From: Mytilinidion resinicola | Taxonomy: Eukaryota; Ascomycota; Dothideomycetes; Mytilinidiales; Mytilinidiaceae | Direction: 5' to 3' | Assembly (NCBI RefSeq): GCF_010093595.1 | Contig: NW_022985444.1 | Location: 502,676 to 566,675 of the forward strand | DNA: 64,000 nucleotides | Shown: one piece after another, positions 42,477 through 46,228 of the stretch | How positions within the stretch are numbered: position 1 is the first letter of the stretch | Layout of the letters: the number at the start of each line of letters is the position of its first letter | Made by a program: the position numbers and the translations under genes | The notes under the pieces: model-generated | What the model was told of the DNA's origin: nothing | Database searches by the model: none | Seen by the model: only the letters and a program-made list of their open reading frames with translations

Positions 42477-45400
42477 ATGGCGGCCGCCGAGAGCGCTTCA
42501 GATTCTTCAAGTATCGGTGTGGACTCTTACGAAACTGCCCTTTGCATTATACCCCCGGCAGATCTCTGCCACGACGTGGACCGCCTTCGTTCAGTATACG
42601 ACAAGCATCATGGGAGATGGCCTCCCCATATCAACGTCGTCTATCCCTTCGTTGCCGTCGAAGATCTTCCCCATGTCGCTCCTTTAATTCGGTCTACCTT
42701 GGCCGAGGGGCAGGCAGCAGGCGAGCTTCAAGAAATCCGCCTCAACCTTGGGCACGCGGATGTCTTCTCTCAGCCACACAGCAACACTATATTCATTGCT
42801 GATGGTGATGACGCTCACAACCAATCCTTATCTGCAACTCGAGGCTTGGTAATGGCTGCTCTAGGACAGAAGAATAACCCTCCCCATTACCATCTTACTG
42901 TTGGCCGGAGTGAAACCCGAGATACTGCTTCTCGAGAATTCTTACTTGAAAAGGCCAAACTACTCCCTCCGATCGATTGGACAGTACAAGAACTAGCTAT
43001 ACTTGTTCGGGAGCGGACCTATAGAGATGGCATTGTATCAAATCGAATGAGGATCTGGGGTACCATTCCGTTAAATTCCAGCCACACTCTTCTCGAGAGA
43101 GAGGAACTATCAGACGAAGAAGAAATTCAGGCCGAAACGGTAGAGAGCACCATCGCAACTAAGACAGTTCAGCCAGGATCTACATACCGCTTTTCTTCGG
43201 AGAGTAATTCATGGACTCGTTACGAATCATCCGTCTCACCAGAAAGCCAAGAGGACATGCCAACGTCCATACGAATCTCGAGCTACAACGTGCTGGTCGA
43301 TTCGATGCATCCACCTCCACGGGAAAGATACCCGCTCTTGGTCGAGACTCTGCTCTCCGCCTCCGCCCAGGCTGACATCTTGGTGCTGCAAGAAGTTACG
43401 GATGACTTCTTGTCTTACCTTTTAAAAATTGAAGAGATCCGAGAATGCTACCCTTTCACAACCCACGGACCGGCTCAGCAAGCCGACATTGGTCCAATGT
43501 CAAGCCTTCGAAATATCGTCGTTCTAAGCCGCTGGGCCTTTGGTTGGGAATATGTTCCATTTCAGCGGCGGCACAAAGGAGCGGTTGTCTTGAAATTCGA
43601 TCACGTTGGGCTCACAAAAGATTCCAGCTTCCATCCTCTGGTCGTTGCCGGCGTCCACCTTACTTGCGGACTCACCGACGGATCTGTTGCGGCGAAGCGG
43701 TCACAGGCCCAAACTACCGTGAGCCACCTTTCCCACAATTATAGAGATAGCCCATGCATCATTGCTGGTGATTTCAACATCTCTACTTCTACATGCACGA
43801 TCAACGAAGCCTCTAAGAACCACAAGATATCTCCTAATACCGAGACCGAAATTCGTTCTCTGGAGACCATGTTTTCTGAGGCCGAGTTTTCGGATGCATG
43901 GACCGTTGCACGCGTTGAGCTCGGACAAGCTACGGATAGATATGCAAGCAAGGAGGCTCATGCTGTTTTTGAAGGCGAGGAGGGAGCTACGTTTGATCCA
44001 ACAGAAAACCCTCTTGCTGCAGAAACCTCTGGGAGCCCAAACAACCGGCCGCAACGATATGACAGGGTTCTTCTTAAAGGTCAAGAGTCCTGGAACGTGT
44101 CCTCCTTTAACATGTTTGGTCAGCCTGATGACGATGACGAGGTGGAGATCTGTGCCAGTGATCACTGGGGTGTTCGTGCCACATTCACGGCGTCCACGAG
44201 TATTGGCAATCCAAAACCGACGTTGAACCTTCATGACCTAGGCCCAGTATCAGTATCGAGGACCTCATCTGCTATTCTCGACAATGAAGCACTTCACGCT
44301 TGTCTCCAATCCTCGAACATGATTCCTACGGAACGCCAAATCTATCAGCGAAAGGAAGCATTCGCGTTGCTAGAGACTATCCTGAATACCCGTTCAGACC
44401 TTCCATTCGTCCTCGTTCCCGTTGGTTCCTACGGCCTTGGAGTATGGACTACATCCTCCGACATTGATTGCATGTTTCTTGGGCAGATTAGTTCGAAGAC
44501 GTTTTTCGCTCTCGCTCGCCAGAGGATTCGGAAAGCATCGGGCCTAGGAGTTCGACTCCTGAGGAAAGTCGATGCGAAGACTGGCACTATGCTAGAAATT
44601 GATGTCAGAGGTATCCGAATGGACATACAGTACTGCCCTGCTGCGAGAATTGTCGAAAAGTATGTATTCTTGCTCAACCTTTGATGCTGTAAATTGCGTA
44701 AGCTAACGTCATAAAGCTGGCCAGAGTCGATTCGGCGACCTTCGTCCGATCCTATCTTCAGCCTAGCTATGCAGTCACTTCGAAAGCTTAAGGCGTTCCG
44801 AGACCAAGACTATCTCCAGCGCACGATTCCCGACCTTGCTGCATTCCGAACCGCTTACAGAAGCATTAAGCTCTGGGCTCAGCAACGAGGTATCTATTCC
44901 GCCAAGTTTGGTTACCTCGGGGGTATCCATATCACCCTGATGCTATCTCGAGTCTGCAAACTCGTCTCCGTCCTCCGTGGCACAGCTGGGATTACTGCTG
45001 CAGATATCGTCAGCATTTTCTTCCACCACTATGCTGAATTCAACTGGAAGTCCGACATGGTGTTTGACCCGTTCTTCGACAAGCAAGCTCCAAGATATTC
45101 ACGACTTACCAGAGAACCCATGGTTGTCCTTGGATTCCACACTCCTAACTTCAACACTGCGAATACAGCATCCGTACCATCTGTCAACACGTTGATCGAA
45201 GAGTTTAAACGCGCAGACTCAATATTATGCGAAGAAAAGATGACCTGGTCCAAATTTCTAGGAGGCAGCATCAGAGACAACGTCAATGCCGTAGAGTCTC
45301 GCCCAGGCGCACAGGATTTCCTCCAGACATATCAAAACTATATCAAGATTGGCGTCAATTACTGGGGTCCGTCTCTGAAGAAAGGTAGCGGGCTGGTGGG

Positions 45401-46228
45401 CTGGCTCGAGTCCAAGTGCGTGCTACTTCTTGTTGGTATGTACCATATCTAGTTATGCCTTTCCCGTAACTCTTCAGCCGCTAACACCACATAGATCTCA
45501 ACAGGAAACTTCCGCACATCCACGCCCGCATCTGGCCGGCCAGGTTCTCGACCCGCGACGCCGGAGATGCAACATCCGACTACGAAGGCTGCTACCTAAT
45601 TGGCCTCACCAGAGCCAAGGACATCGACTCCAATACCACGATTGACGGTACCGCGTCAAAGGAAGCCCTTAAATCAACCCTCGACCGCTTCGAAGAACAA
45701 ATCCGAAGCGACGACCGCTATTACGATCCCACCTCCTCCTGGGTCCAGGTAACCCACGTGAAGCAATCCGCCCTCGGCGACCTCGCACTCGACACCCGCG
45801 AATGGGGCGTCTACGTCGCCGACGACGAGGCGGACAGCGACTCTGAAGACAAAGATCTCGAATCCGAGGACGATCTTCCTGGCGAGTTGGCTGCGACAAC
45901 GCTACAGGAGCCACGCATCACGCCTGTCGCGGCGGCGAAGCTACGACCAGCGGCTGATATTCTGTCACGGCTGCGTTGGGACCCGAACCTGGATTCGCAG
46001 AATTATATCGTTGGGTATGAGGATCGGTTCCTGGGGGCGAAGGAGATTGCGCTGGAGAGGTGGAAGACGGAGCAGACGGATGACGAGTTCATTCCGCAGC
46101 ATCGGATTCTGTACTTCAAGCGCCGGAGTGATGGGGTGGTGGTTTGGGATCGGAAGATGAGGGTTGATTTGATGTTTAGGAGTGGGGCTAGTGGTGCTGG
46201 GGGAGTAGAGAGGAGAGAGGAGGAGTAG
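42477..46228 (+). CDS. four-domain RNA-end-processing protein: 2H phosphoesterase + EEP + poly(A)-polymerase-type NTase + MJ1316/DUF504
   Basis: Exons 42477-44659, 44717-45435, 45495-46228 (introns 57 and 59 nt, each with a CTAAC branch) give 1211 residues; the ATG at 42477 is the first in frame. Domains: (1) 2'-5' RNA ligase-like 2H phosphoesterase, about 15-200, with HIN at 51-53 and HLT at 139-141; (2) endonuclease/exonuclease/phosphatase fold, about 263-572, with SYNVL, metal ligand E306 in LQEV, GDFN (431-434) and SDHWGV (561-566); (3) poly(A)-polymerase-type nucleotidyltransferase, about 600-960, with GSYG (650-653), the D662-x-D664 pair and D716, then the PAP central helices; (4) MJ1316/DUF504 RNA cyclic-group end-recognition domain, about 1121-1200 (DILSRLRWDP, VGYEDRF, IPQHRILYFKR, WDRKMRVDLMF), after an acidic linker. 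Together these suggest healing of 2',3'-cyclic or phosphorylated RNA ends and nucleotide addition. The role is inference; every domain keeps most catalytic residues. Confidence 0.9.

Follow-up and report, generated by a model that had tools for sequence, protein, structure and literature searches.

What would a single polypeptide do with a 2H phosphoesterase, an EEP enzyme, a poly(A) polymerase (PAP) and an MJ1316 domain in one chain? This question is raised by a gene at positions 42477-46228 of the plus strand in a 64,000-nucleotide window, the whole stretch of DNA analysed, from the ascomycete Mytilinidion resinicola (Dothideomycetes, Pezizomycotina; contig NW_022985444.1, positions 502,676 to 566,675). 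With two introns spliced out, the gene reads in a single frame as a protein of 1211 residues, for which RNA-end processing is the natural reading of the domain set. We propose, at a probability of roughly 45%, that the protein is a single-chain "heal and tail" enzyme of RNA 3' ends. Re-splicing and translation reproduced the coordinates, length, intron number and motif positions of a preliminary description made from the sequence alone (HIN at 51, HLT at 139, E306, GDFN at 431, SDHWG at 561, GSYG at 650 and D716).

Four domains in one chain

To establish the domain content, the spliced translation was compared with profile, sequence and fold libraries; nearest relatives are named throughout as those among the matches listed. 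The following features were assigned (window coordinates):

42552..43016, plus strand: 2H phosphoesterase-like domain, residues 26-180, with H51-I-N53 and H139-L-T141 (PF13563, fold model)
43260..44198, plus strand: EEP domain, TDP2-like, residues 262-574 (PF03372, Foldseek, VIA, sequence profile)
44274..45817, plus strand: poly(A) polymerase unit, residues ~600-1075, with palm, central and RNA-binding domains (sequence and fold searches)
44844..45254, plus strand: PAP central domain, residues 771-907 (PF04928)
45944..46153, plus strand: MJ1316 domain, residues 1118-1187 (PF04457)

Four Pfam profiles scored above their cut-offs: 2_5_RNA_ligase2 at residues 26-180 (90.5 bits, cut-off 27), Exo_endo_phos at 269-563 (33.2 bits, cut-off 24.5), PAP_central at 771-907 (63.1 bits, cut-off 27.1) and MJ1316 at 1118-1187 (71.8 bits, cut-off 26.3). 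The PAP palm (NTP_transf_2) reached 17.3 bits, under its cut-off of 21, and is evident from the sequence and fold searches. The four-domain claim of the preliminary description is thereby upheld, as is its statement that no ligase domain is present: besides the 2H family's own name, no ligase family occurred among the 8 Pfam families matched up to E 1. Searches of solved structures with single sequences returned only a ribosomal protein for the EEP domain (E 0.019) and none for the 2H domain, and NCBIfam gave merely sub-cut-off matches, for three homologues. The full-chain fold predicted for an orthologue is confident and compact.

The nucleotidyltransferase, correctly described before as PAP-type, can be refined to a complete PAP, since palm (G650 S651, D662, D664, D716), central and RNA-binding domains were all recovered by sequence and fold searches. 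Alignment to PAP alpha, PAP gamma, yeast Pap1 and Pla1 extends over ~430 residues and keeps the three catalytic Asp. The unit thus shares its three-part build with canonical PAPs and differs from them in its fusion to 2H, EEP and MJ1316 domains and in one replaced residue of the nucleotide site (below). Many such proteins carry the UniRef name "polynucleotide adenylyltransferase".

TDP2 is the nearest EEP enzyme both by fold (Foldseek, VIA) and by sequence profile, although a small EEP-only profile matched it at E just 0.04. Fold comparison gave Z 25.7 for TDP2 vs 23.9 for neutral sphingomyelinase, and a second comparison gave 26.1 vs 24.7. The domain carries a full predicted catalytic set (N271, E306, H394, D432, N434, D529, D562, H563), but because the motif at 431-434 reads GDFN where TDP2 has GDTN, on sequence grounds we name it TDP2-like and do not assign it to TDP2.

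Catalytic residues across homologues

To determine whether these sites are retained, homologues were taken chiefly from two listings (best 120 of 628 and best 120 of 146). All four Pfam labels were borne in one protein by 112 of the 120 homologues in the first listing, in agreement with a single gene, not two. Named organisms in these and a further listing were Pezizomycotina as far as recognised, many entries being without a name, which does not prove that the family is missing elsewhere; by its sequence, nothing sets the protein apart from the rest of its Pezizomycotina family.

An alignment of 117 full-length rows was compiled from this protein and 116 of the 120 listed homologues, P0001, P0002, P0066 and P0117 being excluded as incomplete. 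All 17 chosen catalytic columns were at least 95% conserved, compared to 17.6% of all 1211 columns. Within the 2H domain, H51 was found in 117 rows, N53 in 115 (K in 1, S in 1), H139 in 116 and T141 in 116 (S in 1). The eight EEP catalytic columns (N, E, H, D/N, D and the DH set) were 98-100% conserved, with E306, H394, N434, D562 and H563 in 117 rows and D432 in 115, while the third letter of GDFN was F in 112, L in 3 and T in 2. In the palm, D662 and D664 were invariant and D716 was present in 115 (E in 2). Sixteen MJ1316 positions did not vary: R1126, G1141, Y1142, D1144, R1145, F1146, G1148, E1151, W1157, D1163, F1166, P1168, H1170, R1171, W1185 and R1187. Catalytic residues are therefore near-invariant across these full-length rows, as the preliminary description presupposed.

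Its suspicion of an altered half-site in the 2H domain fared differently. Of the two H-x-T/S motifs expected of a 2H enzyme, the second is present and the first reads H-x-N, a departure that had been rightly noted. Because N53 occurs in 115 of the 117 rows and the motif WPPHIN recurs in a 2H gene that stands alone elsewhere in the genome, sequence comparison identifies HxN as a family-wide variant and not a lesion.

A proposed heal-and-tail function

Metal-independent endonucleases leave 2',3'-cyclic phosphates, and 2H enzymes open such ends. Toxins, stress nucleases and ordinary RNA processing all produce breaks of this kind, which a polymerase needing a 3'-OH cannot tail. In the mechanism that we propose from family roles, an RNA with a 3' end that carries a blocking 2',3'-cyclic phosphate or phosphate, of the kind made by metal-independent endoribonucleases, would be bound by MJ1316 and the RNA-binding domain of the PAP. 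The 2H domain would open the cyclic phosphate, the EEP domain would remove the remaining phosphate, or trim, to give a 3'-OH, and the PAP would add nucleotides, probably A, to this freed end. The tail could then mark the fragment for decay or ready it for repair by other enzymes; any ligation would need a ligase in trans, and the genome holds a predicted T4-type RNA ligase gene (C5).

According to excerpts of PMC9525292, PAP requires a 3'-OH, and the EEP-family phosphatase ANGEL2 hydrolyses 2',3'-cyclic-phosphate ends in vitro; without it, 3' phosphates persist on some mitochondrial RNAs and polyadenylation is reduced. MJ1316 is said to recognise RNA cyclic ends (excerpt of PMC6514570, resting on earlier papers). 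It is the 3'-OH need of PAP, the ANGEL2 precedent and the union of 2H, EEP, PAP and MJ1316 in one chain that lead us to favour heal and tail. The recognition, opening, trimming and extension role put forward in the preliminary description is likewise consistent with the four domains, the kept catalytic residues and the lack of a ligase; its tRNA or U6 substrates are supported by none of the results.

If true, one unblocking and tailing enzyme would tie the fate of RNAs to their damage across a large fungal group and give MJ1316 a tested role, of which we know none at present; it could also serve as a useful laboratory tool.

Natural variants that lack a domain

To examine whether healing and tailing domains are retained together, we considered homologues in which one half is missing. 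The M. resinicola genome encodes a paralogue, P0121 (BDZ99DRAFT_25581, C10:49038-51041, minus strand, 667 residues, one open frame), of 2H-EEP-MJ1316 architecture: the whole PAP unit is absent and the 2H and EEP motifs are retained, a form shared with Lophium mytilinum (P0122). On a 2H-EEP tree, P0121 belongs to a second clade of 19 rows (support 1.0), whose other members include named Leotiomycetes. Since all 10 other proteins of this type examined keep the nucleotidyltransferase motif, PAP was probably lost in the P0121 lineage.

The converse form consists of PAP and MJ1316 only. From the second listing 14 such proteins (593-683 residues) were picked, of which 11 have a replaced catalytic Asp (P0180, P0181, P0184, P0187, P0190, P0194, P0197, P0205, P0212, P0272, P0277). 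Asn often takes the place of Asp, the neighbouring motifs GSYxLGVW, QYC and EFIPQHRI are mostly kept in the broken rows, and so is MJ1316 in these proteins; three related ones (P0184, P0187, P0194) share DDN, P0184 and P0187 coming from named lichens. Judged by these residues, the 11 are likely pseudo-polymerases.

Across 227 rows with a covered palm, scored for the three catalytic Asp with Glu allowed at the third, the triad was intact in 159/159 rows with 2H, 8/8 with partial 2H and 41/60 without 2H, and hence broken in 19/60 rows without 2H vs 0/159 with it. One of the 19, P0273, is a fragment of 387 residues, in which the third position is perhaps misaligned. A Fisher test of 2H absence against broken triad (p 1.9e-12) takes no account of relatedness and lumps real domain losses together with truncated models, and is not used as proof. 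In a tree of 84 rows (39 without 2H, 18 of them broken, and 45 thinned from 122 2H-bearing rows), the broken state required at least 9 changes and 2H absence 15. Among the 39 2H-less rows alone, supported branches force eight of nine changes to the broken state. In this sample, polymerase catalysis appears to have been lost several times over, in each case in proteins without 2H, some of which are truncated models; the pattern suggests, but does not prove, a coupling of healing and tailing. The PAP-less and 2H-less natural versions offer a clean genetic handle.

A further-reaching proposal, which we advance tentatively and consider doubtful, is that many filamentous ascomycetes possess a dedicated one-chain pathway in which RNAs with 2',3'-cyclic phosphates are recognised, healed and tailed, healing being obligatory for tailing. 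Loss of the healing half would repeatedly have left a dead, RNA-end-binding PAP-MJ1316 pseudo-polymerase, which might regulate the intact enzyme.

Gene structure

The exon-intron structure predicted from the spliced reading frame is as follows:

42477..44659, plus strand: exon 1, residues 1-727 plus 2 nt of codon 728
44660..44716, plus strand: intron 1, 57 nt, GT..AG
44717..45435, plus strand: exon 2
45436..45494, plus strand: intron 2, 59 nt, GT..AG
45495..46228, plus strand: exon 3, including the stop codon

This pair of introns, both inside the PAP unit, was the sole choice open to the stop among 12 acceptor combinations tried. The deposited protein (P0001, BDZ99DRAFT_386184, 972 residues) equals the spliced translation over 967 residues and then continues through five intron-2 residues to a stop; ending inside this intron, the deposited model lacks MJ1316. 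Shorter forms also occur among homologues. Thirty-nine models, from the second listing and a further one, start at the 2H domain and stop before residue 1100, of which 14 end at residues 727-729 (the intron 1 site), 15 at 966-969 (the intron 2 site), five, all of the second clade, at 1053-1071, and five elsewhere. Because 29 of the 39 end at the two intron places, most shorter forms look like unspliced gene models and both introns look old. A separate 2H-EEP-PAP architecture without MJ1316 was on this ground largely rejected.

Weighing the alternatives

Several observations weigh against heal and tail. As the paralogues without PAP show, healing can do without tailing, and the 41 2H-less rows with an intact triad, many apparently truncated models, show the triad kept where 2H is missing. 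An independent-pairs sign test of 2H loss against nucleotidyltransferase loss was not significant (median p 0.25); of 10 pairs on supported branches, about 3 had the nucleotidyltransferase state differing in the same direction as 2H, 0 had it differing in the opposite direction and 7 had no difference, so that informative pairs were too scarce for 0.05 to be attainable. In two 2H-less proteins, P0251 and P0253, an intact EEP set goes with a broken nucleotidyltransferase; P0225 and P0243 have the reverse pattern. Within the PAP unit, where Lys, Tyr and Asn are the nucleotide-site residues of PAPs, Lys779 (K 97, R 19, T 1) and Tyr788 (Y 113 of 117) are largely conserved, but the site aligned to the Asn of bovine and yeast PAP (YSN / YAN), two after the conserved Tyr, holds A in 65, S in 40, G in 10 and T in 2 of the 117 rows. 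The canonical set is incomplete, and these residues leave some doubt that ATP is used. Since an end opened by a 2H enzyme still carries a phosphate, the phosphatase step would fall to the EEP domain by itself, and the EEP profile lies nearer to TDP2 (E 3e-4), a 5'-end enzyme that acts on 5' adducts, than to ANGEL2 (0.27).

Because the EEP domain is TDP2-like, its sequence makes a 5'-end role possible, and the chain might accordingly prepare both ends of a break for repair. The 2H domain (with PAP) would act at the 3' end, the EEP domain would remove an adduct or linked peptide to leave a 5'-phosphate, and a separate ligase would join or reject the product, with the T4-type RNA ligase of this genome as candidate joiner. 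We consider this unlikely, given the replacement of TDP2's GDTN by GDFN, the neutral sphingomyelinase match less than 2 Z units from TDP2, by which the substrate is not readable from the fold, and the lack of a link between the ligase and this gene. Reversible tailing, in which the EEP domain is a deadenylase, or 2H and EEP trim PAP-made tails and so set tail length, is decidedly improbable: the deadenylase comparison reached Z 21 vs 25.7 for TDP2 with a lower profile score as well, and 2H and MJ1316 would be left without a clear role. AKAP7-type 2H and PDE12-type EEP enzymes degrade 2'-5' oligoadenylate (2-5A); the three enzyme families here are those of the animal 2-5A cycle, and the 2H and EEP sites are retained. 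That the PAP fold makes a short (perhaps 2'-5') oligoadenylate that 2H and EEP degrade nonetheless seems to us very improbable, since the closest matches of the nucleotidyltransferase are canonical poly(A) polymerases, RNA-binding domain included; no OAS occurs among the matches listed, which is not proof. Finally, the deposited model without MJ1316 and the numerous partial homologue models could point to a mis-assembly of neighbouring genes or a decaying gene. This is scarcely credible for a chain that runs in one frame across two GT..AG introns, aligns end to end with the four-label homologues, has near-invariant catalytic residues and is predicted, from an orthologue, to fold compactly.

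Relation to known systems

The heal-and-tail enzyme proposed here has several partial counterparts. Trl1, the fungal tRNA ligase, heals several kinds of RNA end in one chain with ligase, kinase and cyclic phosphodiesterase parts, whereas our protein has no T4-type ligase or kinase match (Pfam, up to E 1) and bears a polymerase instead. The vertebrate protein LENG9 has 2H and MJ1316 but is not known to carry EEP or PAP. ANGEL2 and MTPAP are separate proteins not known to carry 2H or MJ1316, and the EEP of ANGEL2 is CCR4-type whereas the one here is TDP2-like. What this animal mitochondrial pair shares with our proposal is an EEP phosphatase that clears 3' phosphates and thereby opens the RNA to tailing by a poly(A) polymerase (excerpts of PMC9525292).

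No experimental study of this domain combination came up among the open PMC papers searched. Eukaryotic fusions of MJ1316 to RNA-repair domains, the same pairing as here, are already in print (excerpt of PMC6514570, citing Burroughs and Aravind 2016), and the architecture described here may well be among them. The kind of protein is therefore already known. To it the present analysis adds the TDP2-like character of the EEP, the completeness of the PAP down to its RNA-binding domain, a paralogue that lacks PAP, recurring PAP-MJ1316 forms that are likely dead, and the truncation of the deposited model.

Other relatives in the genome

Besides the ligase gene, the M. resinicola genome has a canonical PAP gene (C2) and five 2H matches, two of which are this gene and its paralogue. 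A PAP-central-like match at C35:40388-40507, weak, sub-cut-off and interrupted by two stops, was considered as a decayed extra PAP copy but not confirmed: tblastn with this protein and with a canonical-PAP exon gave no match there. At C2:771492-774819, the stand-alone 2H gene (WPPHIN, HLS) and the gene for the canonical poly(A) polymerase are arranged head to head, and the 2H frame contains one in-frame TAG between the two motifs (a short intron or a stop).
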